NCBI GenBank assembly: GCA_949152475.1
Contig: OX424561.1
Span: 3,720,001-3,784,000 of the forward strand
Direction: 5' to 3'
From: Terebella lapidaria
Lineage: Eukaryota > Annelida > Polychaeta > Terebellida > Terebellidae
Length of the DNA stretch: 64,000 nt
The translations under genes were made by a program, and so were the position numbers. The notes below the pieces were generated by a model. It was not told where the DNA came from. It saw nothing but the letters and a program-made list of their open reading frames with translations, and did not search any database. Within the stretch, counting starts at the first letter, position 1. Each line of letters starts with the position of its first letter. Positions 17,195-61,564 of the stretch are shown here, one piece after another.

Positions 17195-20100
17195 ATGTTT
17201 GACCCGGAGCCCCCGCCCGTACCCCCCGAAGAAGAGGCGCCGCCGCCCCCCCCGCCAGATGTGAATCCTGCTCCCCCAGTCGACCCCCCGGGCCCGGGTG
17301 ATGCCAAACCTCCTCTCCCGACAGAACCCCCGCCTCAGGAGGAAAAAGTTTGTACCCAGTCAAATTGAATTACGGCTGTAAATGTATTACTAATTGGGAG
17401 GGCTTCAACAAGTACTCGGTTACCTGGTGTGTGTGTGTGTTTTTTTTTCTCCTGACCCGGCCTAGATTTACTGCGCATAAATCATATACCCACGTTACCC
17501 ATAGGTCCGATGCGCATGTTAGTTGCGCAAACAAACTTGTGTCTCGTGCACGCAGATGTAATTAACTCGATTGCGCATGCGCAGGTCACACAAACGAGGA
17601 AACACACATTCGTTGGTGTGGTTTAAATCAGTTGCAACGCTTGTAAAACTTGACTGCGCATGTGCAACCCAGTAAAGGCGATTCAAGAGAATGTTTCATC
17701 GTTATAGATTAAAGTGGTCATTTGACATTGACTTGTGTAACATGATGAGCTCAGCTTTATTGTGTACATGCAGATTTTGGTTGTGTTATAACATGTTGAT
17801 CAAAAATGGGATACCGTACGTATGTGTTCCGTGTGTGCTCCTGAAGTTAAACTGGACAGATCAAACAACATGATGTTTCTTGTTTTATTTATTGATAAAA
17901 AAAGTCCTTGCAATTTTATTGTGACAGTAGTATTTGATAGCAAAACACAATGAAATATCATAGAGAATACTTGAGGTTTTCTACCAAATAATAGCAAAGT
18001 ACGCAGCCTGTGTTCTTAGCCAAAATGCCTCAGTTACTGGTGTTACTGCTCCTGAAGGCGAATACTTCGTAGTGAATTTCTCCTAGTTAATGGATTGGAA
18101 GGTGCTTGTCAGAGTCAGCATGGTACATTTCACTTGTGTGGTGTATAACTGTATATTCTGTTTCTGTATTTTTTGTTTGACTAGGAGCTGAGGCCGAAAG
18201 ATGAAGGGGAGCAGCAAAAACTGACAGAGCTGCAAAAACAAGCAGCAGAGTGGCAGAAACAGAAGGAATGGCAGGAATACCAAGACAGATATAATCGCTT
18301 TCAGGAGAGCGTCGGATGGGTCTCCCCACGTAAGACTGACTTAGTGATAAATGGTATCATGAGACCAGACAATCATTTCTGGGTGGGGATCTGTTTTAAA
18401 GATGATATGATTGAGAATTTGTTGGTGTACTGACTTCTATTCACGAGATTGATGTTGCTTTGATTATGCATGAATATATCTCTTATACTAGTATGTACAA
18501 ACTCATAAAATGCATTTAGTGTTTTCACACAAATTCAATCATGTAATGACAATAGTATTCAGAATATGAGAAAACATAAAGCATCCCCCCAAGAACGGAA
18601 CCAAAAATTGTAATATAAATAAGAGGCCCCACTCTCTATGTATCCCTATGTGACAAGCACAAACAATAGAAAATTCGCCGGTGGAGGACTGTCATATAAT
18701 AGGAACTTCGCCGGTGAGCGAGCTGTCCCCTAGCATTGAAGTCACCCTGAGTTTCTCGACTTAGAATTGCTCAATCATGCATTTTTGTGGGAGTGTTGCC
18801 TGTTATTGATGTTACACTCTTTGACGGAACCCTCAACAATATACCTTGTTGCCATCAAGTATAAATCAGTCCGTGTAGACTAGTGTATTTATCCGTGATG
18901 GATTTATTTTGACGATTTTGTGATAATGCTGGAACACAATTTGTGCATTGTGTTTGGGTTTTTTTTTCAGCTGAAGCTGTGGTTGTTGTCCTGAAGCAGG
19001 AGTCGGATTTTGATGCTCAGTACAAACAGTGGAAACAGCAATACAATGACTGGAAAGAACAAAATAAAAGTAAGTGTTCTAGTTTCAGTGAACAAACAAA
19101 ATTCCTAATTTGTACTGTTACTTCAGCATGTTCAGTACTGCATTCTGCTGTTACTCAGTTTTGCATTCTGCTGTTACTTCAGTATTGCATTCTTCTTCGT
19201 ATTTAATGAATATTTATTACAAGTTATATATTGAAATAATTGTGTGAAAAAGACATTTTTTGTTGGTGTTTGAATGTAATCTGATTACCTGAAGTGCTTG
19301 TAAGTAACATTTGAGGTAACAAATTTTTCTCTTGGACTTTATAGATCATCCCAATCAGGAACAATATCATGAATATGAGAAGACATGGAAGCAATATGAA
19401 GTTCAGATGGAACAAAAACTGCGAGACATAGAAGATCGCAAATTGATGGCCTTCGATCTGCAGAAAAAGCACATGGAAGAAAAAAAGATTGGAATCTATG
19501 GATCCAAGCAGGGAAATGACATGAGACCCTCTGGAATGGGAAATATGGGTATGCGAGGTCCACCACCTCATGGTCCTGGACCCTCGGGTGGTCAGCATTT
19601 CCGAGGTGGACCACCTGGACCGCGTGGACCACCTGGGGCTACAAGAATGCCTGGACCACCGGACATGAGGCCCAGATTTGATGGCCCTCCAGGTCGATTC
19701 AATAGACCTCCTTCGAACTTTGACAGACCTCCAGCTGGTTTCAATGGACCAGATGGGTTTGATGGTCCTCCTGAGGGGTTTAGTGGACACGGTAGATTTG
19801 ACGGACCTCCGGATGGATTTGATGGACCTCCTGGGAGATTTGATGGGCCATCGAATAGGTTCAATGGTCCACCTGGCAGATTTGATGGACCACCTGGTAG
19901 GATGGATGGACCGTCTGGTAGGATGGATGGACCACCTGGTAGGATGGATGGACCACCTGGCAGGATGGATGGACCACCTGGCAGGATGGATGGACCACCT
20001 GGAAGGATGGATGGACCTCCCAGGAGGATGGATGGACTGCCTGGCAGGATGGATGGACCACCTGGCAGGATGGATGGACCACCTGGCAGGATGGATGGAC

Positions 20101-36955: not shown

Positions 36956-37204
36956 GGCTGCACACCTGGGTTAGAAGGCCCTATATAAATCAATGTAAAT
37001 TTTCCCACTTCGGACCTTCTTATCTCTATCAAAGGGGAAGAAAATAAACTTATTGTTCATTTTTTCTGACAGCTACATCACTGGGCTGTAATAAAAATGT
37101 CATTTCGTCATATGGTCACACGCTCGTTTTTTCGCTAAATCTAAATAAAAAATTAGGCCAAGGGCCGAAGATAGGTTACCGGACAATGTTTAATATTTTA
37201 GATG

Positions 37205-38330
37205 TTAGCCAGGTCACTGGTTGAATTCAAGGTCATGAGAATATTCAGCATATATAACATTAATCATATATCATGTCCACAGTTGATTGCTAAGCTGTAA
37301 ATTCAATAATCAGCAAGATATTAGCAATTTTGTGCTGTGGCCTTGAAAATGAAGGGGCAAAGGTCAAATTCAAGGTCTTCAAAATATTCAGTGTATATCA
37401 TTTTCTATATCATGTCCACAATTGATTCCCAAGCCATACAGTCAATAGAGGAGCAAGATATGAGCCAGTTTGTCCTTGGACCTTGAAAATGAGGTCAGAG
37501 GTCAAATTCAAGGTCCGAGAATATTCAGCATATATCATTTCCTACATGTCCACAATTGATTCCTAAGCTGTAAAATCGATAATAAGTGAGATATTAGCCA
37601 TTTTGTCCTGTGACCTTGAAAATGAGGTCAAAGGTCAAATTCAAGGTCATGACAATAATGAGGTCAAAGGTCAAATTCAAGGTCATGACAATAATCTGCA
37701 TATATCATTTCCTATATGTTCATAACTGATTCCTAAGCTGTAAAGTCGATAACAAGCGAGATATTAGCCATTTTGTCCTATGACCTTGAAAATGAGGTCA
37801 AAGGTCAAATTCAAGGTCATCAGAATATTCAGCATATATCATTTCCTATATGTCCACAATTGATTCCTAAGCTGTAGAGTCGATAATAAGTGAGATATTA
37901 GCCATTTTGTCCTGTGACCTTGAAAATGAGGTCAAAGGTCAACTTCAAGGTCATGACAATAATCTGCATATATCATTTCCTATATGTTCATAATTGATTC
38001 CTAAGCTATAAAGTCGATAACAAGCGAAATATTAGCCATTTTGTCCTATGACCTTGAAAATGGGGTCAAAGGTCAAATTCAAGGTCATCAGAATATTCAG
38101 CATATATCATTTCCTATATGTCCACAATTGATTGCTAAGCTGTAGAGTCGATAATAAGCGAGATATCAGCCATTTTAAGCGCTCACCTTGAATTGAGGTC
38201 AGAGGTCAAATTCAAGGTCACGAGGATATTCAGCATATATCATTTCTTATATGTCCACAATTGATTCCTAGTCTCTAATCTTAATATTAAGTGAGATATT
38301 AGGCATAATGTGTCCCATTATAAAGCATAG
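37205..38330. repeat. 134-bp tandem array with nuclear-receptor half-sites
   Basis: About eight units with a 133-134 bp period. Each typically contains TGACCTTGA, a direct repeat AGGTCA-N-AGGTCA and TTCAAGGTCA. Perfect or near-perfect DR1 motifs start at 37492, 37625, 37661, 37795, 37929, 38063 and 38196. Confidence 0.85.
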
Positions 38331-38639
38331 GAGAATTTAACATGGGAAAGTCCCATTTGGGCCGAGTTTGGGCCAAAATGGCCCACTTCGAGCGATTCAA
38401 GCGCAACGAAATTTATAGACATCATAGGGGTACATATGAGGAGTGTTATGTATCAAAAACAAAAAAAGTTACTGAACAGATTTTGAGAAAATGACCACCA
38501 AAGTCCAAAATCAGGCATTTTTCGTCGAAAACGGCCGCCATTTTGAAAAAAATGCGAAAATCAAAAAACTAAAAAATACCTCCTTCCTGAATTATTTTCA
38601 AGTATTTTCGTGCAAAATTTCAGAAGAATTCGCCCGTAA

Positions 38640-38715
38640 ACAAAAAAGATAAAAATGTGGACGACGACGACGACGACGGACGACGGACGACAGACGACGG
38701 ACGCAACGCCATGCC
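38640..38715. repeat. GACGAC/GGACGAC simple repeat
   Basis: A GAC-based run typical of the right end of this element family. The counterpart in copy 2 is at 60489-60542. Confidence 0.8.
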
Positions 38716-39006
38716 AATAGGTTATCGGACCATAGGTCCGGTAACCTAAAAAATCACCAGTTTCCGCCCGTTTTGCCGACGAGCGTCTGACAGCCGAGGT
38801 CCCCTCGAAACATGTGTGTTCGGCGTAGGAATACCAGACATTTAATGTTTTGTCAAAACGACATGTAGTGCAATGTTCGAAGCTTTTTAGCTACAAAACA
38901 CCACTAGTTATATATTCAATATCCACAAAGACTGCATACATGCCTGAAATCCAAGGTTTTTTTAGGAACTATTTGATTGGGTACACGGATGTCCCAGGTG
39001 CGATAC

Positions 39007-39081
39007 CTTATAAACCTGTCCGCACGTTCACGCTATATCCGTGGTGTAACTACTAGGTAGCCACCACGTCATAACGCTACA
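39007..39081 (-). repeat. 3' LTR of the TRIM-like element, first part
   Basis: Matches the first 75 bp of the other LTR and stops at CTTATAA, the duplicated target of the nested insertion. Confidence 0.8.
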
Positions 39082-39718
39082 GTGCTTTCCCCCGTTTTGT
39101 CCACCAGACGGCACTCCGAAGCAACCGTCTTTGTAATAACCGATTCTCTGGTCCCCTGAATCAGGGGACGGTGTCAATGCGCGTTAACAAATAGTCCGTA
39201 TTAATGCGCGTTTTGTAAACACGAGCACGTGATTTCTTGTTTTGCATGGATCGACCCGCCAGTCACGACTCAGCCATGGATTTTTCAGAGGCGGTAAAGA
39301 TTGCCACGGACACCGCTACTGGAGTTATTCTATCATAATCTCTTTAAAAATTGTATAGTTTTCGACAATATGTCCTGTCTGTAACAAAATATCACAAACA
39401 TTCAAACTTATTTCGATTCATAGAGGCATCCATGTTGGAACTATTTTCGGTATCCCAGAATGCAAAGGACGAATCGTGTGAAAGACGGGTGCTGGAGCGC
39501 CGCCTTTCGTGAAAATGTGCTTTCCCCCGCGGAGAGACCTCGTACCCGAGGTCAGCTATATCCCACTGCCCAGTCACGTCACGTGCAGCACTGAAGATCG
39601 AGGGCGCCGCAGCTACCCGATTATGTACACATACTTGGCTGTGATGTGAATCTCAGTGAGGGGCTGACCCCAGGTACGACGCCGAGAGAACCCAGTGGTT
39701 CGAAAGGTACGGCACCAA

Positions 39719-39855
39719 TGTAAGGTTCAGCGACCCCACGATAAAGATGTATACCCCATTACTGGAGTGTCGCCGAATGTCTTATAAACCTGTCCGCACG
39801 TTCACGCTATAACCGTGGTGTCACTACTAGGTAGCCACCACGTCATAATGCTACA
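39719..39855 (-). repeat. 5' LTR of the TRIM-like element
   Basis: 137 bp, minus strand, starts TGTAGCATTATGACG and ends CTGAACCTTACA. Confidence 0.8.
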
Positions 39856-39939
39856 GTTTGTATAGGCCTTCCGGTTATATTCCATTTAATATGATTCCCG
39901 AGTCAAACAATTCTTCTCGATTAGCATAGCCGTAGCCTA

Positions 39940-39945
39940 TTTATT
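39940..39945 (-). terminator. Poly(A) signal candidate of HLX
   Basis: AATAAA on the minus strand, about 245 bp after the HLX stop codon. Confidence 0.4.
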
Positions 39946-40190
39946 TGAAAACTTCTGTACAAATTTTTCAAAATGCTTACAGATATGCCTCTGTCGTAAT
40001 ATCATATAGATCTTGCTATGTACAAACAAAAATGCATCATGTAAAATTACATGTGCAGGCCTATCATGAACGTCGGACATCTTATCATGATATCATGACA
40101 TCCTAATCATCATATTCCAGAATAGCTTTCTTCGCGAAATCGTGACACAAAAACAGCAGTCCATCAACCAGGCGTCAGGATGTATGACAG

Positions 40191-43100
40191 TTATGTTGCA
40201 ATAAGTTTTCCATCAATTGATGTGTTTTCTCGGTCCAGTTTAGCGGTATCGATATTCGCGATTTTCTCCTTTGCGGAAACATACTCCGCCTGCACGTCTT
40301 CATGTGCAAATGTTTTGCCCGTCGCATCGTCCATTTCGCCGTCATCGCTTTCCGCCGTGACGTCACTTCCTGCCGCCATAAGGAAACCGTCGTCCACGTC
40401 GATGTCGCTGTCGTCTGCCAAAAGTTCATCTGTGACGTCACAGCACGTGGCACCCACTTCCTGTGTGGGACTTCCGCTGGTGTCTTTGCTTTGTGCCGTG
40501 TCGTCACCGTCTTTCTTTCTCCTGGCCTCCTCCTGATGGCGCCACTTCATGCGCCGGTTTTGAAACCAAACTTTGACCTGTTTTGGACAAAAAGAAAATA
40601 CAATTCGCTAAATATGATTGATTACTAGTAGGCCTAGGCCTATATGTCAATTAATTTATATAGCCTATTCGATGACATTTGTTTTGTGTGGTATATGCAT
40701 GAGTTTGGAGTAGGCTCTGTAGATAGCCAATTTTCGCTTTTATTTGGTATTGAGTTCTACAATGGCGACGATATTGCGGGTTTCTGTTGGTTTATTGTTT
40801 CCTTAAGTCTGAACTGCTCACTTTCAATCTGTTAATAAACAATTCAACAGAAGCGATAACTTGTCAACAGTTGCAGGGAATTCTTGGCCCTGGTCTGACC
40901 CTGACGATTTTATCGCTCTGATTACTGCACTGGTCGGTTCCAATTCTAGAAACAACCCTTCGTTAGACATCAATTAAATTATTTCAGTCGATACAGTTTG
41001 TATTTCGAGCTAATCGTTCGCGGTTTGCATAATTGCTGTCGATAACAAATATTTCCCTCTATTCCTATCGTGGTATAAGACTATCTTGTAATCGTTTATT
41101 TTGGGTTATAAGCGGTGAAGGAGCAGGTTATAAGGAGCCGGCTCTCGACTTTGCTCGCTTATCGTCATCCAAGAAAACCCAACACCACTCCAATCTGACC
41201 ACCACACGTTGTGTCTCGTACCAACTGTCACGAGGCTAATTTTATTTACGTTCCCGAATCAAATAAATTTTACACGTAATTGCTCTACGGGCCACCTCCC
41301 ACAAACTCCCCTGTGTGAGCCGTGAACTTACTTCTGTATACATTTACACTGCCACTGGTGACCGCAAATAACGATAAAGTCAAGTTTTTATGAAAAAGTT
41401 CAGCAGTGCGCGGAAGTTTGAAAGTAGAAATATTTGTGCTATGTGTCATTGAGGAACAAATATTTCATTACGTCATACACCTATAACAGTACATGCATAA
41501 TTTATCCAATTATATCCTTTAAAGTTAATGGCTTTGAATTTTCTTCTTTGTGTGACTTTGGCTTATTACATTATCCTATTCATATTTATCTATGATATAC
41601 TAGTAACTCCTGTTGTTTAGATAATTTACGGAAACGAAATTCAAACTCAACGGCGGAGTTCGTAGGGTACAATAAATGAAAATTTTGTTTCCGTTATCTC
41701 CGTACCTGTGCGTCCGTGAGGCCGAGCATGGCCGCTAGCTGCCGTCTGTCGGGTTTCGTCACGTATTTCTGCACCTCGAACCGCTTCTCGAGCCCCTTGC
41801 GCTGCAGGTTTGAGAACACTGCCCGGGACCAGGACCGCTTCCTCTTGGGCTGGGGGTGGCCCGCGGGGTGGTGGCGACCGGCCATCTTCTCCGCTCCCGC
41901 AAGCAGTGAGTACGGGGGCGCTGTGGGATAAAGTATGGCCATGGTTTGTACTGTGCTTTTCTCATTATATTATATCCATCGAATCTTTACACTGTATATA
42001 TACAGTTTTCACACAATTAATAAATGTATGATTCAATTATTATTCAATTCTATTTTATACGATATTAATATAAATATTATTTATATTAATATCGTATGAA
42101 GGATATTATCATGGAACACACATGCTTCGTAAAAAAATTATTGCTTGCAATTAAATTATATATCTTTAGCCCAGGTTTAATATTTCGAATTTCCCGTATA
42201 ACTTTTCATTAGGCTCATATTAGGCCTGTTTGGTGGGATGATATAAATAATTCTTTCAACCGCTGCTGCTACTGTTGGTAACAATAATAATCCATGATGA
42301 ACGGTTTATATTCAACTAATTTGAGGGTATTACGGAAACGCGATCACGTAACTATGCTCAATTACCAACAATTCAAAGGCAAAAAAAAATCGTTTTGATG
42401 TGAAATCCGCTGACCTTCCCGCCTCGGAAGCAAATCAAACTTGACGTCACTTCCGGGTGGTTGGGAATTCTGTCAAACTTCACTCGTTTTAACTGGAATT
42501 AATTGGACCTAATTCTCTACTGTGTTATAGATTTCTCCCTTGCGGCATATCTGAATTTTTATGCGTTGATTCTCCGAGTTTCTGTTTAGTTTAAACTTTT
42601 CCAGTTCTGGTAATAATCACTGGACTTCACACGTGATTTCGAGCCCAGTCCAGGGATCTGCTCTCCGTGTATTTCCTCATTCACAGCTCGAGCGACAGTT
42701 GTTCATAACACGCCATGGTCATGAAATACGTTTTTTTGTACTCGTAGAAGGCCTTCCATGTTATTCCAAAGACGGAAGAGGGTCTGCAATGACTGATACT
42801 GCCCGGTACAAAGAGATTTACTGAACGTTATCGCTCGCCAGTGTATATCTATGTAAAATAAATTGTTTATACAAACCAAGCAAGGATTTCGAAATAAATG
42901 GTCAACATGATCCTTTGTGGGCTTTTCATCAGGAACTGGTTTTGAATGTGAACATTGGTATTTACACTATGAACCAGTTATATACAATTATTATATGATT
43001 TCCAATGTTTAGATCCATACTTTCATTGACAGAGAACAGCAGCGTTATTGAGTGATAACTTCTGAACGTTCATAGTGCCTCAAGTGTTTCTGCGAATTAA

Positions 43101-46100
43101 TATCAACCGTATTTTCATTATTGTGATAATATCAGACAATTTTTGTGCATCTGTATAATTTTTTGGGTAAGTATTCAACAAAATATGCTGCACGGAATGA
43201 ACAGATCAGCATCGGCAATTAGAATTTTCAGGATATAGGGGTAGGCTACATGTAAATTGTAGGCCTAACAACTGTTAAATTATGGCACTGACTGACAGTC
43301 CTTTAAAATAAATACGTCTATTTCCTATTATGTATAATTCAGACTGGTTGTTAATTATGTGAAGTTTATGTGTTTCTTTTTATTATTTCGGTGTTATTGT
43401 GATTTATAAGTCAATAAAAGCTATATTTATAACAGTAATCTGGACTGTGTTGTCACTTGAAGAAGTGCAGTTTCTTACATAGTGACTTCTGTTTTATCGT
43501 AATTGGCTTCGGTTGTTTACATTACAGTGGATAATACTTCGTCGAGACTGTGATATAAATGTTTATGTGAATAAGAAATGCCAGCGATATTACCCCGCGT
43601 AATGTAAACTGAGTTTGACTTTGCAAGCAATAAAGATCCACAGTCTAGTGCAAGAACGCGTGTCATGTTTTAGAATTCAGTCTCATATGTGCCGTATGGT
43701 GCGTATCACTGTCAGATCTACTGACATAATTAATTCATAATTGACTCATCTTGGACATGTTTCTTTTCCGATTTCAAGGAGATGATTCCTCATCGACCGC
43801 TTTGTAAACAAACACAAGGACTATTACTTTCAACGTAAAAAACGTTTAGTGCCACGGTTCTTCGGGGTTTTGTCGGATCGTCTGCTGTATTGTACACTAT
43901 AGGGGGCGCTGCCTGGAGCGACTTGGGGGAGCAGACGACAGACGCAGACCAAAAGCCCGGGAATTAATCAGACTATTACCTAAACAGAACTGGCGTGTAT
44001 TGACCATTAGTTTCGAAAGGTTTGTGATTTCATTCCAAACGATTTTAATTGCGCACAGCAATGCTGTTCTATGGAGATTTGTTTGACAAAAACATTTTGC
44101 GATGACGAGCCTGTAACGAGGTGATAGTGAAGGTGCAGAGAGGGTGGTAGGTCGTGTTTTAAGGCTGACAGAAAGATAATCCCCAGAACTGGACCTTGAT
44201 GTCTTCCCATTCTAATATACACGTCATCAATAACAACGTGGTCCGCCCTTCAACAATTGTTATTCTAGCAGTGATAAATACAGGACTTTCTTCGGGCAAT
44301 CAACATCGTATATAATGCCCAAGCCGTGGCATATCGTGTATACAAGGGGCTGCTCGCTCGCTTAGGAGGCAAAAAGAAATCCTGAAATATCGATGGACGT
44401 TAAGAGGCACCATTTGGGTATGCAGTTTTGGGTGGTCGTGTACATCTATATACCAGGGTATATACAAAATACTATCATGGTAAACCAGGGTAGGCCCTAT
44501 ATACGAAATTCCAAAGGACCATATTAATATCCATATTGTATACTAGTACGCTGATCATTGGGGCATATTCAAGCGTAATGTATTGGGCGAAGGCTTTGTC
44601 TTTTCAAAACGTGGGCGAATGAATTATAAATATTCATACATAAATCATACGTCCTGCTATATTTGAAATGGTGAATGTGTCCTTTAGGTTCAAACATAGT
44701 TGTTATTAGTTACTCATGATTTTTTCGTAATCTACCAACTATAGTGTGTTTGTTTCTTGTGATCATGCATATAATATGTGACCAGTCAGAAGCATACAAA
44801 TTAATGAATATATCAAACGCTGTGATCTGTGCATTTCCGTGACTGTGTGATCACTGCTGTGTGTTTGACCGATTTTTCCGATGTCAGAGGTCGGCAACCT
44901 TTCAACAGTAACATGAAAATTTTGTATGGTTAAAAAAATATGTGACTTCAAATTTCACCTTCGACTTAAAAAGATCACTGACACGGATTTTAGATTACAA
45001 TCGTCTGTGCAACTCTAAAAAATGAGATGGATACCTTTCTTATGAATGTCATACGGAAAGCATAGGGCGATCTTTACCACGAATTACCAAATCAGATCGG
45101 GCAATCACGTTTCATGTACATGGACCAACATGGCAATATTCAAACTTTATTCCACCAGATATTAGTACACAGTTAGGGAGCAAACATAATGGTAGACCTT
45201 TGTCGCTGTTTGTGACGGAACGTCTAGTCCAGATTATATCTTAGTACAATATATGCAACAATATGCGATCGTATAGGATAGGGCCAAACTGAATGCTGCG
45301 TCCCATATCTTCTACAAGACATACATGAGGGCCTCCAATTAAACTTCAATGTAACGGGAGTTTTATTGTGTGCAAATGATAATTTCGAATTTTTCGATTC
45401 CGTGTTTGTGGATATTACTCGATAATTGTTTGCCGCTTTTATATGTGATTTTTCATACTCAACATTATGATGATATCTCCTGTTATGCTTGTTCGTCAAT
45501 TATTGTGAATACCTTTACGTACATATATTCTAGTTAATAATAAAAACAACAACAATCAGTATGGATTAAAATTTAATAACTTTTCCCCTTCTGACGTGTG
45601 TATGTATATCCACAGCGTTTCTTATATTTATTAAAGAATGTATCCAAAAGAATATATCCAAGAATGTGTCGTTTTCTTTATTTTTGGTCAAATAGTATTG
45701 CTTGGAAAAACCATTCAACAAATTAGTTCCATTCGGTTGTATACTTCTCATTGTGAATTATAATTCATTGTATGTCCTTTGTTGTATTGATGTATTTCTA
45801 TAGTATAGAGCTTGACTTACCCTGGAAGTCTGCCGGTCTGTATCCGTGCAGTGCGGGTGGGTGGGGGTGGTGCTGAGCCGTGTATCCGGGGTAGGGCAGA
45901 CTGGGGAGCACGAGAGGACAGGGCAGGGTGCCGCAGTGACACGGGCTCCCCAGGGTCGGGCCGGGGGCTTCACGGGGCGGCGGGGCGCCTCCCCTGGGGC
46001 TAGATCCTCGGGTGTCGGCAGGTTCTACTGGGAGAATGGACATTGGGTACACGTACGTGTATAATCATGGAGATTATACTCATAGGGTTATAGATTACAA

Positions 46101-46787
46101 TGAATTACGGTGGATTACAGAGGTCAAATAAAAAGGAATTCGATGTGGGAATATATGAGGCTCACAATACGCACACTGATAAATCTCCCTAATGATTGGT
46201 TCATTGTCGGCCCTACCTGTATGGTCTCGGGAATTCGGGATCGCCTTTACGCTGTCGCTGTTTTCAGTCAGAATGCGGTCGATGCCGAACTTGAGTTCCT
46301 TGCTCGCGACGACAGGGCGCGGGAGTTTGACTCTGGTCCTGTCTTGCGGGGACCCGGTGTCCAGGGAGAGGGGTGAACCCTCTGGGCTGTCCCCACTCGA
46401 GGAGGCCGGCTGCGGGGACGATTGGGGCAGGGTTCCGGGCAGGCGGATCACGCTGGGGTACATACCTACGCCGCTGCTTAGCAACACGGCCCCGGCGCCT
46501 TCACCTGTCAGGTAGAGGTCGGAGCCCTGTTGTTGTTGCTGGGCTTGCAGGGATTGTAAGGCGAGAAGGGCGGAGACCCCTGCTCCAGCAGTGGGCGTGG
46601 CTCCCCCGCGCACCGCCAGCGGTTTGTTGACGGTCGCCGAGGAACGACGCGTGTCTGCTGACGTCATGACGTGCGTGGTGTGGCGAAAGGCCGAGAGGGG
46701 CGCTGTTGCCGACAGATTGAGAGGATCTCCACAAGAAAAGTGTGACCACAGCGGGGGAAGACCCGGTCCCAAACTGTTCACGAACAT
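40191..46787 (-). CDS. HLX: H2.0-like homeobox transcription factor (HLX)
   Basis: Four exons on the minus strand: 46787-46217, 46027-45821, 41920-41706, 40577-40191, in phase, about 459 residues (human HLX 488). The homeodomain (about 285-345) starts KRKRSWSRAVFSNLQRKGLE and ends VKVWFQNRRMKWRH, almost identical to vertebrate HLX, so it binds TAAT-type DNA in the nucleus. An eh1-like Groucho-binding motif KFGIDRIL lies at about 165-172, as in vertebrates. The N-terminus MFVNSLGPGLPPLWSHFSC aligns with the vertebrate MFAAGLAPFYASNFSLW, which is why ATG 46787 is preferred over in-frame ATG 46808. The last intron splits the homeodomain between DAQ and VKVWF, the common position 44/45. The tail is acidic. 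Intron 2 is 3.9 kb and could hold enhancers. Confidence 0.93.
42057..42097. repeat. Perfect AT-rich palindrome in HLX intron 2
   Basis: Arms of 19 nt (ATACGATATTAATATAAAT and its inverse) flank ATT. The 41-nt structure could extrude as a cruciform. No element around it was identified. Confidence 0.8.
42098..45820. other. HLX intron 2, remainder
   Basis: AT-rich intron without recognised exons or mobile-element ends. The long intron in a developmental regulator is a plausible place for enhancers, but none can be defined from one sequence. Confidence 0.4.
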
Positions 46788-46808
46788 CGTTTTCAAGAGT
46801 CTTCTCAA

Positions 46809-49800: not shown

Positions 49801-52073
49801 TACACCAATGTTTTGGATGGACATGTCTTTTAGTTAGATCGCGACACCTATCGATATTGGTTGCCATAGCAACAAAATTGGCCGATTGGCGATACATTTT
49901 GTCTTGAAATTGACCTGTTTAGCACACATGGTTTGTTAACGCTTTATGGGTGGGAGATTTTGATGAATGATGATGGAATCGCAAAGGCTCGATGGGAAAG
50001 ACAGTCACACGATACCTATTGTTTTCTAGAATGATCAAATAAATATTAACTAGTTAACAGGTTGTTTATTACAACCATTGAATTACCCATTTTGACATCT
50101 GTGATAACAATAACATGTACTATGAGAGCAAATGGCGCTGGATTCTTGTTCAGAATAGAGAACATGCTTTTGGTGAAAACCGAACAAAATTACCGAATAA
50201 ATTAAAATTGGTTTTACTAGTTAAGTCTATTATTGACCACAATAAAAATAGTTAAGACAAAAATCTTTTATTATTGGGCTCAGCGAGGTAAAAGTTCTGT
50301 CCAGGAGAGATTTCATGGCTGTACCCATAATGTTGGGGGATTGAACAAGGTTTCATAATCCATTCCTGTGACAAGCTCCTCTGGAAATTATTTGGTAAGA
50401 ATAATTTTGACAAGTTAATAAGTTAATGAATATTTTAGTGAATAGTTAAGGTTCGGAATTTTCATTACTGATATCAGAAACCCATTATGGGTTTCTGCTG
50501 ATATCGATGAAACACACTGGCCTGGCAGTAATGATATTTTGTCTGAATTGAAATATTTTGGGCAACAGGGATAATAGCCATTTTTTTACACAGGTTTTGA
50601 TCAAATTACTGTAGTCTGTACACCTGGTTAATTGCCTGGGGCGAGAGTAGGGTTCGTTTGTTTTTGTTACAGCAACTTCGTATAAGTGGTGGTGTAATTA
50701 TGTTTTCGTTCGTTGTTGATTGGTGCCTAGGGAATTGGAGCATTACTCCTTTATTCTAGAATGGATGATCGTTTTTCTGGACATAGACTGTAACTAGTAG
50801 GGATTTAATCAATCTGATAACAGTATTTGTGTGTCCATTCAACACAATATGAACCTCATCTGTTTACATTAGAAACAGACTCCAAATCCCAAACAGTCAA
50901 AAAAGTTACGATGAAAATGTTATACGTAACGCCAGGACAGACGTATTTTAGAAATACCACTATTCTTTTTCAAATAGTTCTACTAAATAGAATCCGCATT
51001 CACAATAATTATTTAGAATATCAGATGTTATTGGGGAGAATTACAGAAATGAAATGATCTCATTCGCTCGAAAGACACGCACAGACACACGTTAAATGGA
51101 ATGGTAATTATATACTACCTCAATTTGATCCATTATTTTGCCTTGTTGTTACGTGTCAATATTAATATTATTATTGTCGATAGTTTTCGTAAATACCGCT
51201 CCATGATATTTAAATGGCGACAGATTTAGATTTCATCTTCTGCTCCAAATCATATGCCTGAAATTGAGCTATAGACGAATAATTTACTTCCTCGTGTGCG
51301 ACTGGCAGCTCCTGTAAACTCAGTTACATTAACAATTAAATTCTAAACGATTACCATAATTTGGCATTCAAGTCATTATCTCCTTTTGAAATCGATTAAA
51401 GAATAATTTCATTATGTGCTATTGCTATTTGTAAGTTTTATTGTAACAGCTTTGGGAATTCCCCCACACCTCCTTGTGGGTGGAACATTTGTATCAATCA
51501 CTCAACCCAGAATGCTACAGTCGTCCCCTGTAGTTTTCGAATCTAAGTTGGTGATAAATTTTGAACAGCATTTATATTGTAGTTTGAAATATTTCATAGT
51601 CATATTGGTTAGGTACGGAGGTTCGAATAGGACGAAATCCGAATCGAACTCGCTTGTCTAATAACATTTTATGGGAAAACTAATCCGATATATGGATTTT
51701 TTCAGTGAGTGAACTTCTCCTACATGTATAGTGCTTTCGTTACATTTCAATTCTTTAAACTAATGATCTATTCATTGGTCGTTTCATTATGTGTGAAAAA
51801 AATTTGTAAAAATTCTGAAATAAGACTGATATATTGTAGGCCTACACAATTACAAAGGATGATGTATCTGGATGAAATTATGATAAGTACCATCAAAACA
51901 GGGATGGGTCCCTTATGGGTTTCTTGTACCATCTAATGTTGTCAAATATTGTGGTAGCCAGGTTAATGAATGAGAAGCCACTATATGTCCCAATCTTTCG
52001 ATATAACAAATTGAACAGACACAAACAACCGACACATGATATCAAGTTCTCTATTATCGGATATTTATTGTGT
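46809..52073. other. HLX upstream and HLX-TTC13 intergenic region
   Basis: About 5.3 kb with no gene I can support. CpG-richer stretches at about 47450-48300 and 48950-49200 lie upstream of HLX and may be promoter or enhancer DNA. A near-perfect hairpin (GATATCAG...AAACCCAT / ATGGGTTT...CTGATATC) lies at 50470-50505. Confidence 0.4.
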
Positions 52074-52079
52074 TAACAA
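52074..52079 (-). terminator. Poly(A) signal candidate of TTC13
   Basis: AATAAA on the minus strand about 920 bp after the TTC13 stop, so 52.08-53.0 kb would be the 3' UTR. Nearer non-canonical signals cannot be excluded. Confidence 0.3.
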
Positions 52080-53001
52080 TGTGTGATAAACATGATATTT
52101 CGATCGAAAACAAACCTGCCAGCTCCATTTTGGAGCGATTCAACAATTTAAAATGTTTGACAGCTCATCCTAACAATACTGTTTAACAATGGCTTCAACA
52201 GGTAACATGCAATAAATACTGACAGTATCATATGTATATATATATTTCAACACAGCAATAACAGTTTGATCAGAAAGGCTATGGTTCATGTTCAGGGACC
52301 AACATTCACAAAATGCCTTGTCAAATCTTCACTCTACCTCACCAGGGCGTGACAATCATGAAAAGATGAATGACTACATGTGAGCTTTATGCATCTGGAC
52401 TGCAATTCACACTGGTATAGTGAAATGATGAAATGTTGCATATTTCAAAATAGAACTGTTGCCAAAAATACCCAATCAATGCCCAATCAGAATAAACTAA
52501 TCTTTTTGATTTGAGAATTCGCAGACCTTGCTGCTTCATAATTTCATCGAAGTCCTGTCAGGTTCTCCAAACTGAATATACAAATTTGTGAATGTGTCCA
52601 TAAAAAGACCCACACTTCTGTTGTTGAAGTCCATATTAGCCAATGTAAGCTTTCATATCAAAATTTCTGAATTTAAACAATTACATCAATGGCATGTAAA
52701 TGTCATTGTATACTGACCTAACTCACTTTAAACAATCATTATTCGACATCATTTTCATGCAAGGTATCAAATTAGATACTTGACCAGGACGTGGCATTAC
52801 AGATATTAAAAAAAAAATACAGCATTTTGAAGTACATGGCAGCAAAGATAAAGATTTGTCTAACTATATATGACACTTGTATTAGAACACAATTGAGATG
52901 GAAAGTTACCCTTTTTTTATCACAAACACTGGAATACTTAACACAACAAAAACCAACAGAGTCTGCATAACATGATATGGTTTGGTTCATTACGCTGACA
53001 T

Positions 53002-56000
53002 TCAGAGCAGCGTTCTGGTCATAATGTTGAGATCTGTGCAGTCGGGTATCCCCGTATTCAGGACGTCCAAAACTTCCCGCAAAGTGCTGAAGGCTTCAGA
53101 AACCTTCGGCAGGTTGGGAATCGGGTTTTTCTTCAGTCTGATATCGAAATAAACAGATGTACATCTACTGGAAGTATATAGGTCGATCAATACTGATACT
53201 ATTAGATGATTCTTTAATATAGTTACTCAATGATGCATGTCTATTAAATGATTGTTGAATATAGTCTCCAATGCAATGCTTGCCGCTAATTACCGTTTGA
53301 TATTCATCCAGTTTTTGGTGACCATGCTGAAAGTGTCTGGGCCTCCGGATATAGCTGCCTCAATCTCCAATAACTACAAAAGTATTGAGCATCATGAGCT
53401 ATGATCAAAATTTGATTCATCCAAACAAGAAAAACGATAGATCAGTCGACTGGGATCAAGTTTTTGCACGAACCCACAGATAACTCTTATGTGCTGTTCA
53501 AAGATTTTCAATATTGAATGATATGACACAAACATAGCATGCAGTGTCCTTACAATGAAGAGCATGCTACGTCTACAAAATGTGTATGTTTATGGTAAAC
53601 TTATACGACAATGGTACGTACCTTGCCTGTAGCAATGCGAGTGGTGGGTTCGCGGCCCACGGACATGACGAGACCGAGGATGACAGACCACGCGACCGCG
53701 CTCGTGCCGTGGGAGAGCGGAGACAGGTTCAGGAAGTAGTACACTAGCGACAGGATCAGGCTGATGATGTGGTCCGGGTCCTGTATCCATGGCAACAACA
53801 GCGTCACAGTGCAGGTGTGGGTGGATATAGAATAGCAGCATAGATCTCTTATACCAATATAATATAGCACAGTAGAGCTGTGTTAGTTCTTGTAAGCATT
53901 GCAGTTTTACCAAAATGACACAATTCTATATTATGTCTATAATATTTTAATGATTGGTAATATCTCCAGAACAAATAACAAAATTCACTGTATTTACCTG
54001 CGTGACATCATAACTGATTTTCCCAGTTCAGTGAGTTCAAGTAAATGAAACTATCTCACCTCGGAGGACTTGCCCTCAAGTTTGCGGATCTCGTGGTACA
54101 GCTGGTAGAAGACAAAGTCCAGCTCTCCGTGGATCGCCTTCGCTTTCTCGGTGTTGTACGGGAGGTTGATCGACAACGCTACTCGACCGTCCCTGTCATA
54201 CGGTAGTCATGGCAACAGTGAGTACCAGGGGAAATCAGATGTATGAACAGATGTATATTGCTCTATACTTCCATCTAATGCCAATGAGAATCTTATTATA
54301 CTCAGGGGTTTGTGACAACGAATCAGAAGGCTCCATGTAGTTTAAATCATTAAATTAATCAGTTTCTTATTATGATAAATTGTAGTCTGCAGTACAATGC
54401 TTATTCTAAAAATGTCTCAAAAAGATACCAACTTGTCTGAAGCTATGGACAAGTAAACTCCTTCATATTTTGGGGCCTTAGGGTCTTTCATACTTGGTAC
54501 TTGTGTAGCCATCACATAGCCTTGGTCACGAAACAGGTCCTTCTGCAAGTTGAAGAGTTAGTTGATCAACTGCAACATCCTCACTCAAGGCAATAACATT
54601 GTGGTTTGACTTTTTAATCATGTACCGGTATTTTTGATTTCACATATATTTGTGATTTGATATTATTACCTTGAATACATCTATCATTTCCTCATATGTT
54701 TCAACACTGAGCAGCTCATGCATGACAACCTCCGGATACATTTCCCCCTCACTGTAACCATGGTAACAGATCATGAATCAAATACTGCAATGACATTCCC
54801 ACAACAAAACTGAGCCCGCTGAGAGTTTTATTGAATGTGGTTAAATTCATTGTCGAAATTGAAAGATTCAAGTGCTTTGTAAATCATGATCTGAAGAGCA
54901 TTAAATAACGAAAGGATACTCATCTTTGGGATTTATTGTGAACAGTTCATATCTAGAGCGGATACATTTCTTGATTGCAAAATGTGCTAACGCCACTGTG
55001 TGGCACTTTACAGTTATATGTACCTATCCTGAGTCTAGAATCGGTATTCGGATTCTGATAATCAGAAATAAGACTGAGAAGGTATCTTACCCACAGTGGA
55101 CGGAGACCATGGTTTTGACGAGTTTATAGACTAAATCAAAGTAGTTCATCAGTCTGACATTGATGGTGTGGCCTCTGTGGAGGAAGATAAAGGTATGTTA
55201 TTCATAAGGTATGTTGTGGAGCGAATCCAATTAGCCTGACAGGTGGTGCTAACAACTTATGGTATTGATCATATCAGTGATTGTAAGTTTGCTACAAGAT
55301 GATCTCAAAATTTATTCCAATACTCTAAAACTTCTCGGGCAAATACTGGAGTCAGATGTGCCGCTAATGACACAGGTAAGTTATGAGGCTGACACCAACC
55401 TGACAGGTAAGTTATGAGGCTGACACCGACCTGACAGGTAAGTTATGAGGCTGACACCGACCTGACATGTAAGTTATGAGGCTGACACCGACCTGACAGG
55501 TAAGTTATGAGGCTGACACCGACCTGACAGGTAAGTTATGAGGCTGACACCGACCTGACAGGTAAGTTATGAGGCTGACACTGACCTGACAGGTAAGTTA
55601 TGAGGCTGACACCGACCTGACAGGTAAGTTATGAGGCTGACACCGACCTGACAGGTAAGTTATGAGGCTGACACCGACCTGACAGGTAAGTTATGAGGCT
55701 GACACCGACCTGACAGGTAAGTTATGAGGCTGACACCGACCTGACAGGTAAGTTATGAGGCTGACACCGACCTGACAGGTAAGTTATGAGGCTGACACAG
55801 ACCTGAAAGGTAAGTTATGAGGCTGACACCGACCTGACAGGTAAGTTATGAGGCTGACACCGACTTGACAGGTAAGTCATGAAGGCTGACACCGACCTGA
55901 CAATGTAGAGATCATGTGTGTATCCGAGCTCCTGCTCCGATTCCGGCATTCCGTCCAGCCAGAAAACAGGCTCCTCGGGGTTAACGAGGCGACGATAACG

Positions 56001-59000
56001 CACAGCAATGTCGAACAACTCCTTCCATGATATCCCTGGACCTGATGGGGTGACATCAAGATGTTGGAATGGGGTTATCACATGGCTTTGGCAGTCTCAC
56101 TGTCTTTCTGTTGTCTTTTAGAACTGTTTCTAATTGAATATGAGTATTTGTCAGTAACAGTTTTAGCCAGTTACCTGTTTTTGAATCTCCGACATCATTC
56201 CATACATCCTGCAGGTGGTTATAGATAACTCATGATTATTTTAAACAATAATTTTACTGGAAAAATCCAAATTTTCAGAAGGAAGAATTGCATCACACTA
56301 ATGATTTCTTTGAACTCCTTTAGATGACTGTTGGAAGTAATTTCACTATCAGTAGAGTACAAATACAGAACACCGTGCCAGACCTGCATGAGCTGAGCGA
56401 TGTGTAGTGCGCCGAGCCCGATGGCCATCTGTTCCCGTTTGTTGGTCAGATACCCGTCTGTCGAGTAGTCGGACATGTGACCCACTGCTCGGGCGTAACA
56501 CAGGATCGTCTGGACGTCCTCCGTCATGTGATAGAACTCTGGCGGGCTCACATCTCTGGAGGGAAGGGGTGGGGGGGGGGGACGGGGGTTGTATCATTCA
56601 ATATCATTGAACATTGTACTGGAAATACTTGTGACAGAATAAATATACAGAGGTCATTAGTCTATTTCAAAGCACAAATCAACATTTCACATTCAGTAGT
56701 ACACATTGAATGTTCTAATGTTATGAACTCACGAAGTAGCAGGTGATAGACCTGGTTGTTCTATGTATCCACTCTGCAATACAACAGAATTTCATGGTCA
56801 AATACCGGATACTTGGTTCATACCTTAAATAGTAATAAAGAACTTGCAAATGGATCAGCAGTGATCACTTCATGTTCCTTTCAAATGTTAACAAATTTTG
56901 AGCACATCTCATCTATGCTCATCACTGTACCTTGAATTGGAATGGTTCTGCCTTCATCCACTTTTCTTTGAATTCTTGTGACAAATCCCCATCAAAGTCA
57001 ATGTCTGTCAAAACTTCGTCCAAGTTACGATGGAGATATCTGGCATATTCTGAGTGAAGAGATGACGGAGAAGGTTATATATTTTTTGGTACCAGTGAAG
57101 CTCTAGAGACAGTATCAAATGCTGTGATATTTATAAACACACACACCTCTCAAATAATGTGCTTTTATAAACTCTGGAGACATTTTCAAAGGCTTCGGCG
57201 TCTGCACTAAAACCTGTTTTGGCAAAAAGTATTATTAATAATTCTGACAGGGAACTATATTTCGAATGCTCAAGATAGCATAATGCAAACAAGATGCCAG
57301 ATTTCATAACCTGTGAGCTTGTACCTTTGTGAATGACTTGATCCCGCTGTAGAACTGCCCTTTGGTGGTGAGAGTCAGAGCGTTCAGATACTGACATGCG
57401 TAGTTCTCAGGCTGTAGCTGCAGGCATTCCTGTAATCCACAGACATACACTGGTATATACATGCATTCCACGGACAGTGTGGTAACAGGCGACATTCACG
57501 GGTCCCATACATGTTGTACATTCATGGGGAAACGTGTGAAAACACATAACTAGGCAAGATCCACATAAATTGTTCAGCCTATATAATGCTGCATATAATG
57601 TTCCAATAGAAATGATATCATAATGTTCCAATACAAGCGATATCATAATGTTCCAATACAAGTGATATCATGATGTTGAAATTTGAAAAGAAACTAAATC
57701 ATGCACATCATAATGTTTCAATACACACATGATTCAAATCATAATGCAAGAGTCGAAACTGTACTTAAGAATTTTTGAAGTAGAAAATAAGCAAACCTGG
57801 AGATCCTGAGATGCCTCTGTGATAAGACCGTTGTTATAGAGGAAAGACCCCTTTAGCTGCAGGGTTTTCATGTGGTTGCCTTGTAAATGTAGTGTTTTGT
57901 TAAACATCTTCAAAGCATTTTTCGAGTCCCCCAGTTGTCTGTTAATGAGAATGGAGAACATATCATGACTTACCAGAAATAACTTGTTCTAGTCTCCCAT
58001 AAATTCATTACTTGCATGTAACAATGGTAAATGTTTATCAGCAAGAAACCTGTCGAAAAAGCAGAACTACCGTATATCTATTATTCTAACATGTTAGTAC
58101 AGTAACAGCAGATGAAGAGTACACATATTCCTTACCCATAAACATGGGCCAAACTAGCATGTGCATCATAGTTCTGAGGATACTTTGCTATTAAATCCTT
58201 GAAAACCTCAATCGCATTCTGAAAACATATAAAATATAAATTGTTAAAAAATCCAAAAGTTGAACAAATTTGGAAATTGATGTATTTTATGAATCCCGAG
58301 GCAGTTTTTCTGTTACCCGCAGCATGCCGCGGTAGTACAGGGTCAGCGCCAGGTTGTAGTACGTGTTCTCCGTGTGCGGTAACTCCTCGTACGATAGACT
58401 GTTCCGATAGTTCTTCTCCGCCGACTTCAGGTCCTGGCCACAACATATTGGAATTTCAAAAATTTAGAGCATCGTTGCATGACTACAAAATACTGTCAAT
58501 ACATTAAATTTATGATAGATCAGAAATTCAAGTTATGAAATTTTCTGGTTCTATTTCATGCATTATTATGCCTATGTCAACTGTACAACTGCAATGATAA
58601 AGGTTTGATTGATTACCCACGTTACCACGGTGACACTGACCTCGACCACGAACTGGAGTGTGGCTTTGAGGAAGTACGCCCGGCTGTTGTCTGTGTCCAG
58701 ATCTATCGCTCTCTCAACATTCAGCATCGCATCGTCATAGTGACCGAGTGGGATATACAGCTGCCAACAACATTGTGTGAAAAATTATGATTTATAAATT
58801 TGTTCAGAAAGGGAATTTTTTTTCAAAATAGAGGGAAAATTTACAGGTGCAAAACTAGTCATTGTACTGTCACTATGACCAACAATAAACGAAGAAACAT
58901 AGCACCAAGGGTGCTGTAGCTTACCGGCAATCATGAGAAACGCAGAGTATTGATTTTCCAACATATACATTGTTACACTGATCTTGAACTCTAATTGTCA

Positions 59001-61564
59001 AAAAATGTTCGTAAATGTTGCTGGAAACACATTTTCTGTATGGACTATAGTACGAAATCAAATTACACATCACAAAGGTACATAAAGAGAATCTTATACA
59101 TGATTTTGAGAAAAACTGTCTGAATAGATTTAGACAAAATGGCCACCAAAGACAAATTTCATCGTTTTTGACCTTCCAAGGTCATTATAATAATGAGCAT
59201 TTTATAGTCTAGGATCACCAACTCAAGTCGGTCTCTCTGACTGCACAATTATTATCCCCGGCAGACCTGTTCACTCCGACACATACTCAACCTCAAATTG
59301 CCATCTCTGTCTATTGCCAGGTGCCCAATTATACTGTTTGGGTGAACAGCATACAGCAGCGCAGGTGAATGCACAAACAGGGTCACCCATCCATGTATTA
59401 CCCACGCCTAGCGTTGCTTAACTTCGGTGATCTTACGGGTACCGGTGTGTCATGCGCTACAAGGCCGTCATTGAAGGTCAAATTCAAGGTCATCACTCAA
59501 ACCGCAATATATGGTTTCCCATTTGAATGTGCCATTACTTAGGCTCTATCTTCAAGTGTTCTATGAGTTTACTCTGCACAGCTCCCATTATGAAGGAAAA
59601 TTGGGTGAAATTTTCTAAGTCCAAAAAATTTTTCAATGGCCAAAAAAAAATTTTTTTTTTTTTTGCTGGAAATGGCTCAAAACGAATAGTGACTTGATTT
59701 GGGACAAAAAATTTTTTTTTCGCCGACCCGTCAAAAAATCAAAATGGCCGCCACACGCAGACCGGCAATTCAAGGGCAACGAAACTTATACACATCATAG
59801 AGGTACATGAGGGGAATGTTTTAAAACAAAAATCTCAAAACTGATCAGACAGTTTTTGAGAAAATGGCCATCAAGTCCAAAATTGGTCATTTTTCGACAA
59901 AAAAAGGTCGTTTTGACCTTCCAAGGTCATTGAAGGTCAAATTCAAGGTCATCACTCAAACCGCAATATATGGTTTCCCATTTGAATGTGCCATTACTTA
60001 GGCTCTATCTTCAAGTGTTCTATGAGTTTACTCTGCACAGCTCCCATTATGAAGGAAAATTGGGTGAAATTTTCTAAGTCCAAAAAATTTTTCAATGGGC
60101 AAAAAAAAATTTTTTTTTTTTTTTGCTGGAAATGGCTCAAAACGAATAGTGACTTGATTTGGGACAAAAAAATTTTTTTTCGCCGACCCGTCAAAAAATC
60201 AAAATGGCCGCCACACGCAGACCGGCGATTCAAGGGCAACGAAACTTATACACATCATAAAGGTACATAAGAGGAATGTTTTGAAACAAAAATCTCAAAA
60301 CTGATCAGACAGTTTTTGAGAAAATGGCCTCCAAAGTCCAAAATTGGCAATTTTTCGTCAAAAATGGCCGCCAAATCGGCAAAAACGATTCAATCAAAAA
60401 AATTAAAAAAACGTCTTTAGATACTGGCCCAAGGTATGTTCTGACAAATTTATGGGGAAATTCATCACGTCAAAAAAAAGTTACAGACCCGGACGGACGA
60501 CGGACGGACGACGGACGACGGACGGACGACGGACGACGGACGAAATACCACGACAATAGCTTATCGGCCCAAAGGGCCGGTAAGCTAAAAAGGTCATTTC
60601 CGAAGCAGTCACAAGATTTGAAACAAGTCCATGCAGACTGACCTCAGCTCTGCGCAGGTAGTGTTCCGGATTGTTCGGCTCGAGTTCCACCGCCTTCGAG
60701 AAATCATCTATCGCTCGTGTGGCTAGCTTTGTCTGTGTATGGGGGGTAATCGGTCTATTTTCAGAACAGTCAGGGTCACAAGGTCATTGGTACAGATAAG
60801 ATATCGAACTTCTTCATGTTCATACTGACCACAAGACCTTTTCTTGCATACGCCATCCCTCTTCCGTGATACGCCGAGGCTAAGTTTGGATACTCCTACA
60901 GTACAGATAGTAAACAGATACAGGTTACGGTATTACCGTACAGATTACATGTTTGAGATAACCAGGGTGAACAGTATCATGAATTCATGAACACTGCTCG
61001 TTTGCAAGAGCATCATGCTACTAACTCTACATATCTATCACCAATACACATGTACATTTTACCTTTACAAGGAGAGTAAAATATTCAACGGCTTCATCTA
61101 CGAGGCTCGCTCCCAGCAAGACCAGACCATAGGCTGCAAGCATACATGTGAGAATTTTTATTTTTACTTATATCCAGTGAAACATGGTAAGTATGATTTA
61201 TAAATGCGTGATACATGCAGTCACATGACGTAACATCTCAAGAACAACAATGAGTAAAATTTAGATGTTCCTTAAGTGTGTTATGGTTTCCGTTATTACA
61301 AACATACATTATGTGTACGGAAATATCCTGATGACCATACAAAGATTTCTACAACAAAAATTATTTAAACGAAACACTAAACATTTACTCCATGACAGAG
61401 AAACTCATGCGAGACTCCTATGGGTTTCTGATGTACACAGTTGTGGCTCCTGCAAGGTTTCACAATAACCTTCCATTGTTCTACTCACCAATCCGTGTGT
61501 CTGCATTGAAGTCGCCAGTGGGAACCGGTAACAGTTTGTTGTCCACAATATAGCTGGCATACCT
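53002..61564 (-). CDS. TTC13: Tetratricopeptide repeat protein 13, partial at the N-terminus
   Basis: Twenty-two phase-consistent exons, minus strand: 61564-61489, 61133-61063, 60895-60830, 60732-60643, 58760-58641, 58433-58317, 58218-58136, 57938-57797, 57429-57325, 57213-57147, 57049-56931, 56773-56733, 56555-56384, 56208-56175, 56041-55897, 55174-55091, 54751-54670, 54542-54433, 54192-54060, 53780-53622, 53373-53294, 53137-53002. They encode 743 residues plus stop; human is about 860, so roughly the first 120 lie beyond the window. The first 300 residues are TPR helices (AIDDFSKAVELEPNNPEHYL, YDDAMLNVERAIDLDTDNSR, AIEVFKDLIAKYPQNYDAHA). The C-terminal part has the TTC13-specific GISWKELFDIAVRYRRLVNP, PVFWLDGMPE and LILSLVYYFLNLSPLSHGTS. 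TPRs bind protein partners. The biochemical role of TTC13 is poorly known. Confidence 0.93.
55365..55890. repeat. 31-bp minisatellite in a TTC13 intron
   Basis: About 17 copies of a 31-bp unit (plus strand core GGTAAGTTATGAGGCTGACA) run up to seven bases from the exon 56041-55897. On the gene strand every unit contains CTGTCAGGTCGGTGTCAGCC, which matches the exon-intron junction GTCAG|GTCGGTGTCAGCC itself. On the other strand each unit carries CAGGTAAGT, a perfect donor consensus. Confidence 0.9.
59187..59466 (-). mobile_element. 5S rRNA-derived SINE (SINE3-like)
   Basis: A 280-bp insert bounded by the 6-bp duplication GTCATT (59181-59186 and 59467-59472). Comparison with the duplicated, empty site near 59920-59935 confirms the boundary. 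On the minus strand, 59448-59381 reads ACACCGGT, GATCACCGAAGTTAAGCAAC and TGGATGGGTGACC, matching 5S rRNA through its internal Pol III control region (box A, intermediate element, box C). The roughly 190-bp body is unrelated to 5S, and the 3' end is ATTATTAT, a LINE-like tail. 5S-headed SINEs (SINE3) are known from fish and a few other animals. The partner LINE is not identified. Confidence 0.75.
59471..60345. repeat. 459-bp internal tandem duplication of copy 2
   Basis: Sequence starting TTGAAGGTCAAATTCAAGG at 59471 repeats from 59930 with few differences, including poly-A/poly-T tracts and AAAATGGCCGCCACACGCAG. The first unit is complete and the second runs into the unique right part. Confidence 0.85.

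Follow-up and report, generated by a model that had tools for sequence, protein, structure and literature searches.

A 64,000-nucleotide stretch of the genome of the annelid Terebella lapidaria (GenBank assembly GCA_949152475.1, contig OX424561.1, positions 3,720,001 to 3,784,000 of the forward strand; here called the window) holds two related elements, E1 and E2, whose terminal hairpins differ in sequence between the copies and still pair, which raises the question of what kind of element carries ends of this sort. A preliminary description, read from the plus strand, saw a 31-nt hairpin at the right of each copy and a second hairpin with a CCAAGG centre at the left, and knew of no named family with this architecture. 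We found that E1 and E2, read on the minus strand, are very probably non-autonomous rolling-circle transposons of the Helitron2/Helentron type (HINE, DINE-1-like), so that the element had appeared back to front to a reader of the plus strand. On the minus strand, the architecture is the layout described for Helitron2/Helentron and HINE/DINE-1 elements of Drosophila, mite, and oyster in parts of the published accounts (PMC3627910, PMC4067079, PMC7492417, PMC2374699). The class meant here is Helitron2-type in the broad sense; Helentron proper, in which the autonomous partner would carry an endonuclease besides the Rep/helicase, and another Helitron2 lineage are not separable from the ends alone. 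E1 and E2 therefore add members to an already described type, for which folded, matched ends and paired base changes have been published before. An apparently unnamed architecture thus resolves into a known one viewed from the other strand, which is a trap for readers of raw sequence. The feature had been given as a single span from 37156 to 60587; both copies lie within it, but the ~20 kb between them is not part of the feature.

Direct reading placed the right-hand hairpins, the far-left repeats, and the CCAAGG hairpins where they had been described (Table 1). In the minus-strand orientation, the right-hand hairpin becomes the 5' end and reads TAGGTTACCGGACC-TAT-GGTCCGATAACCTA in E1 (38748-38718; plus strand TAGGTTATCGGACC-ATA-GGTCCGGTAACCTA) and TAGCTTACCGGCCC-TTT-GGGCCGATAAGCTA in E2 (plus strand TAGCTTATCGGCCC-AAA-GGGCCGGTAAGCTA). 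Of the 14 pairs in the stem, those at positions 4 and 12 differ between E1 and E2, each changed on both sides, which confirms that pairing is kept. The far-end repeat, here termed the 3' asymmetric terminal inverted repeat (ATIR), carries both stem changes of its own element's hairpin. On the plus strand, it is the 13-nt TAGGTTACCGGAC in E1 (GTCCGGTAACCTA on the minus strand, 37184-37172) and the 12-nt TAGCTTACCGGC in E2, and each left terminus does match its own right end. The CCAAGG hairpins are paired in both copies as well, although their variation is looser than had been suggested, with a difference in length too (4 bp versus 6 bp).

When two differences per arm are placed at random, both fall on partner positions and are complementary with p ~ 1.2e-3, and with p ~ 2e-6 if the third site is also to agree, values that come from a simple model ignoring shared ancestry and serve only as guides. 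A window scan, designed after the copies had been seen, returned seven loci at which the outer arm of a hairpin is repeated farther downstream in inverted orientation; at E1 and E2, but at none of the other five, a palindrome lies just beyond. Across 40 dinucleotide shuffles, the mean was 0.3 hits for the hairpin and inverted repeat, and no shuffle (0/40) gave a hit with the palindrome. The loci near 2854, 4837, 31473, 48851, and 59641, which have a hairpin and inverted repeat and no palindrome, were dropped.

These results support the view that the ends of E1 and E2 are maintained as folded or matching ends, with the two ends of each element agreeing as a mobile element would require. Of the two causes first proposed, selection for a folded end or templated copying of it, the second is unneeded. 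Template-directed correction at quasi-palindromes, by template switching, is known in general and would make the arms complementary without any selection of the ends. It would also be expected to erase mismatches, yet each 14-nt stem has one non-Watson-Crick position, common to E1 and E2 (C.A on the minus strand, T.G on the plus strand), and a third, distant copy ~ 1.6 kb away also agrees with the changed arms. Because the mismatch is kept in both stems and the far copy follows the changes, we consider template correction very improbable as the source of the stem match.

Table 1. Parts of elements E1, E2, and E3, in window coordinates
Feature	Position	Strand	Basis
E1, very probably a non-autonomous Helentron/HINE; defined over 1593 bp, with an approximate 3' end	37156-38748	-	direct reading, alignment, scan
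E1 5'-terminal hairpin: 5' ATIR/subterminal inverted repeat (subTIR) TAGGTTACCGGACC plus inverted repeat (IR); 14-nt arms, 3-nt loop, C.A mismatch at stem position 8	38718-38748	-	
E1 microsatellite rich in GTCC/GTC; the unit has 7 bp (+ strand, GGACGAC)	38659-38703	-	Tandem Repeats Finder (TRF), alignment
E1 tandem-repeat core, monomer of ~134 bp with a single 170-bp interval	37224-38306	-	TRF
E1 3' ATIR/subTIR, 13 nt complementary to 5' ATIR	37172-37184	-	direct reading, scan
E1 3' palindrome GGCC-CTT-GGCC, 4 bp (plus strand GGCC-AAG-GGCC)	37156-37166	-	
E2, very probably another HINE; defined over 1687 bp, SINE-like insertion included	58901-60587	-	
E2 5'-terminal hairpin: TAGCTTACCGGCCC plus IR; C.A mismatch at position 8, as in E1	60557-60587	-	
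E2 GTCC/GTC-rich microsatellite, slightly longer than that of E1	60490-60543	-	TRF, alignment
E2 internal tandem duplication, two copies of a 460-bp unit	59467-60364	-	TRF
E2 3' ATIR/subTIR, 12 nt (TAGCTTACCGGC on plus strand)	58917-58928	-	
E2 3' palindrome AGCACC-CTT-GGTGCT, 6 bp (plus strand AGCACC-AAG-GGTGCT)	58901-58915	-	
E3, probably a third HINE, from another family	27361-28986	+	hairpin, ATIR, palindrome, tandem array
E3 5' hairpin, 31 nt, ATTAGGGCATTTCG-GCC-CGAAATGCCCTTAT	27361-27391	+	
E3 tandem array, 147-bp x 7.2	27777-28840	+	
E3 3' ATIR CGAAATGCCC, 10 nt, repeating part of the hairpin 5' arm in inverted orientation	28957-28966	+	
E3 palindrome, 6 bp	28967-28986	+	

Both copies run in the same order on the minus strand: a 5' ATIR with its partner repeat (the 5' hairpin), a GTCC-type microsatellite, a tandem-repeat core, the 3' ATIR, and a 3' palindrome. 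The parts and their order, in E1 and in E2, are those of the published Helitron2/HINE plan. The 5' ATIR stands at the putative 5' terminus, folded into its hairpin directly after a T run, while the 3' ATIR is separated from the palindrome by 5 nt in E1 and 1 nt in E2. A GTCY-type microsatellite and central tandem repeats, which are common in HINEs and not universal, are present in both elements, and E1 has a variable stretch between the two. The copies had been said to share interior blocks, and sequence is indeed shared, but the main block is the 5' ~ 360 bp beside the hairpin (38392-38752 versus 60225-60591, 74.5% identity over 373 columns) rather than the interior in general; elsewhere, E1 and E2 share short pieces, some of them AAGGTCA-rich.

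Our comparisons with known systems draw on parts of the cited papers and extend as far as those parts do. In Helitron2 (Bao & Jurka 2013, PMC3627910), the 5' ATIR is 0-2 bp from the 5' end and forms a 5' hairpin, the 3' ATIR is just upstream of the 3' hairpin, and Helitron-1N1_CQu and Helitron-1N2_CQu are related by compensatory mutations. E1 and E2 share the 5' ATIR hairpin, the 3' ATIR before the 3' hairpin, and the compensatory changes between related elements; unlike the autonomous members of Helitron2, which encode RepHel, they encode nothing. The FoHeli elements of Fusarium (PMC5148889) are likewise Helitron2-type with asymmetric terminal inverted repeats, and FoHeli1 and FoHeli2 have hairpins at both ends, but they are protein-coding and about 5-11 kb long, whereas E1 and E2 are non-coding. 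For FoHeli1, polymerase chain reaction products with joined ends point to a circular form (PMC5148889).

The likeness extends to the HINEs. DINE-1 (Yang & Barbash 2008, PMC2374699) has 13-bp subTIRs, an IR beside the 5' subTIR, a GTCY microsatellite, central repeats that are species-specific, and a 3' stem-loop; the stem varies among species in a way that points to compensatory mutations. Mite and Culex HINEs have palindromic subTIRs and a 3' palindrome (Thomas et al. 2014, PMC4067079). E1 and E2 resemble these Helentron-HINE elements of Drosophila, mite, and Culex, in which subTIRs of 12-15 bp lie near both ends and either an IR adjoins the 5' subTIR or the subTIR is palindromic. They share with DINE-1 the microsatellite, the repeats at the centre, and a 3' stem-loop in which base changes compensate each other. 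Their subTIR sequence differs from that of DINE-1 (in D. melanogaster, for example, ATACCCGTTACTC), and whereas the DINE-1 IR is partial, theirs is almost complete, like that of the mite and Culex HINEs with palindromic subTIRs. In Cg_HINE of Crassostrea gigas (PMC7492417), compared by description only, the order is subTIR, IR, GTCY/GTCC microsatellite, variable segment, satellite-like tandem repeats, subTIR, and palindrome. E1 and E2 resemble it in the 5' subTIR (11-12 nt there) with its complementary IR, in each of the following parts, and in the T-rich surroundings; in Cg_HINE, too, the subTIR, IR, stems, and loops are reported to vary from element to element. The most abundant Cg_HINE clusters have 140-180 bp monomers; the ~ 134-bp monomer of E1 is just below this range, that of E3 (147 bp) is within it, and the 460-bp unit of E2 is longer.

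Neither element has much room for a protein. E1 has 30-38 stops per frame in all six frames, with a longest open stretch of 61 aa, and E2 has 17-33, with a longest of 101 aa. Such a lack of coding capacity, together with inverted repeats at both ends, would also suit Foldback-like or miniature inverted-repeat transposable element (MITE)-like cut-and-paste DNA transposons whose terminal inverted repeats happen to fold, and DINE-1 itself has been termed a MITE (PMC2374699). However, the two inverted repeats are placed asymmetrically, one at the terminus and the other internal to the palindrome, and in their GTCC microsatellite and tandem core E1 and E2 agree with HINEs. The joined flanks show no clear target duplication beyond shared A/T runs, though the runs themselves may be duplicated, and a cut-and-paste origin appears improbable to us.

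The boundaries lend further support to the HINE reading: the similarity of E1 and E2 ends at the T run just outside the 5' hairpin, and in E1 a TAA and a T run lie beyond the 3' palindrome. The flanks are T-rich; the target of DINE-1 and Helentron-HINE elements is TT (PMC2374699, PMC4067079). The remaining alternative is that E1 and E2 are non-autonomous copies of a canonical Helitron (Helitron1). Helitron1, marked by 5' TC, 3' CTRR, and a 3' hairpin only, is also of rolling-circle type, and E1 has CTAA just after its palindrome. At that place, however, E2 has CTAT, not CTRR; the 5' end is TTAG with a hairpin, not TC, and the 5' hairpin and ATIRs are lacking in Helitron1 (PMC3627910). Taken together, a Helitron1 identity is scarcely credible, and we return to the Helitron2/Helentron type.

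E3, on the plus strand, is a probable, not certain, further HINE judging from its sequence (Table 1). It has matching pieces of only 21-23 bp with E2 and no match to E1 at E up to 0.01. Its frames have 11-32 stops each, and a 170-aa open frame (27473-27985) has no Pfam match. A relaxed scan of the window returned 16 rows, namely four in E2, two in E3, nine inside the E1 tandem array (repeat artefacts), and one unrelated at 11382-16811; E1 itself was missed because its palindrome is below the 5-bp limit of the scan. On 20 shuffles, the relaxed scan gave seven hits, spread over five of the 20, so the case for E3 is the hairpin, 10-nt ATIR, and palindrome around a tandem array, and not the scan alone.

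Pairing energies follow the same matching of ends. With its own arms, the hairpin reaches -10.2 kcal/mol in E1 and -11.8 kcal/mol in E2, and cross-pairing the arms of the two copies weakens it to -6.3 or -3.1. Calculated with DNA parameters and with strands treated as separate duplexes, the 5' ATIR of E1 pairs at -16.3 with its own 3' ATIR versus -12.6 with its own hairpin arm, and that of E2 at -16.1 versus -14.2, values that speak for the Helitron2/Helentron assignment but omit the advantage of a local hairpin over a distant partner. Pairing with the other element's 3' ATIR is weaker (-11.7 and -8.7). The ATIR duplex is the stronger one in part because the C.A position, present in both hairpins, is absent from it.

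Besides this omission, several points weigh against the Helitron2/Helentron assignment. The 5' arm of E3 is without preference (-14.5 with the 3' ATIR versus -14.7 with the hairpin arm), and swapping from hairpin to ATIR pairing is therefore not general. The 3' palindrome of E1 is very short, and the covariation is carried by two related copies only. From the 3' ATIR to the palindrome end there are at most 16 nt in E1 and E2, while the published distances to the 3' end are ~ 20-30 bp in Helitron2 (PMC3627910) and 38-60 bp in the mite HINE (PMC4067079); the element may extend past the palindrome, or its tail may be short. Because of this distance, we lowered our confidence in the HINE reading slightly, and it stays high.

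In addition, neither an autonomous partner nor an empty site nor another related copy was demonstrated in the 64-kb window or in viral and prokaryote contigs, with the joined flanks of E1 and E2 giving no empty site in the window. A hairpin pattern with free covarying positions had no match in the viral contigs. Its three matches in prokaryote genome contigs (L001-L003; metagenome-assembled genomes of Bacilli and Paludibacteraceae) were judged to be chance and not relatives, because they are bacterial and have no local BLAST match to E1-E3 at E up to 0.1. A conserved internal stretch likewise had no match in the viral contigs. A 19-nt core motif occurred in five viral contigs (L004-L008), which have no similarity to E1-E3 beyond the motif (at most 22 aligned bases). 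Among the matches listed by a literature search with the elements' terminal words, no transposon topic was seen in the titles and abstract openings.

If E1 and E2 move as published work on related elements suggests, a Rep/helicase from an autonomous relative elsewhere in the genome would mobilise them in trans, nicking at the 5' end; one strand would be peeled off in a rolling-circle transfer, and the product would insert into T-rich DNA. The 3' ATIR and palindrome would mark the element end, perhaps through pairing of the 3' ATIR with the 5' ATIR and opening of the 5' hairpin, in line with the proposal that ATIR pairing destroys this hairpin when replication ends (PMC3627910). As subfamilies diverge, the hairpin arm, its partner arm, and the far-end ATIR would change together, since a single stretch of 12-14 nt has two partners to match, and the E1/E2 pair is a small, clean case of three-site covariation in Helitron2-type ends. 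The calculated energy preference of E1 and E2 fits the hairpin-opening model and would make the ends subfamily-specific. Against such specificity, some Helentron families less than 70% identical elsewhere have (nearly) identical subTIRs (Thomas et al., PMC4067079), so ends are not always family-specific.

A bolder form of this model, which we regard as doubtful, would make the 5' ATIR a bistable switch and a family-specific "key". The conserved mismatch would favour the duplex with the element's own 3' ATIR, the arriving 3' end would flip the hairpin and end strand transfer, and the triple covariation would stop E1-like and E2-like elements from ending on each other's termini. On the other hand, a C.A mismatch in two related elements may be plain inheritance. 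The shared stem mismatch makes the published model, in which ATIR pairing opens the 5' hairpin, testable by simple end swaps.

Both elements are involved in nested insertions. E1 lies inside a 2.06-kb insertion (36956-39013) bounded by CTTATAA direct repeats, and an uninterrupted paralogue of the target of that insertion, 93-96% identical, is found 0.7 kb to the right at 39719-39857. Near the ends of the insertion are 8-nt inverted pieces, CACCTGGG/CCCAGGTG, which alone are not significant (E 2.7). E2 holds a 5S-rRNA-like insertion on the minus strand (59187-59472) with a 6-bp repeat, GTCATT, on either side, and its uninterrupted site is kept in the neighbouring 460-bp unit. The one match in the window to Rfam at gathering thresholds is 5S at 59351-59472 within E2 (E 1.4e-6), and the insertion is probably a short interspersed nuclear element (SINE). 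This nesting suggests that the mobile DNA around E1 is older than E1 and received it as an insertion, and that E2 itself became a target at a later time.

Several other features of the window were recorded. Strong hairpins occur at 42054-42100 and 50470-50505, one a 21-bp AT-rich palindrome and the other a long, slightly bulged stem around CAGAAACCC...GGGTTTCTG. A 31-bp minisatellite at 55372-55902 (17 copies, 97% matches by TRF) contains CAGGTAAGT in its unit, which we take to be the 5' splice-site consensus. On the plus strand, two long open frames have no Pfam or PDB sequence match: one of 901 aa (19332-22037), with internal repeats and an RERE/RD-rich end, which we presume to resemble the cleavage factor Pcf11, and one of 711 aa (9760-11895), which gives us the impression of a retrotransposon Gag. 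An Enoyl-CoA hydratase/isomerase domain (Pfam ECH_1, E 8.5e-25) is encoded at 505-1266, also on the plus strand.

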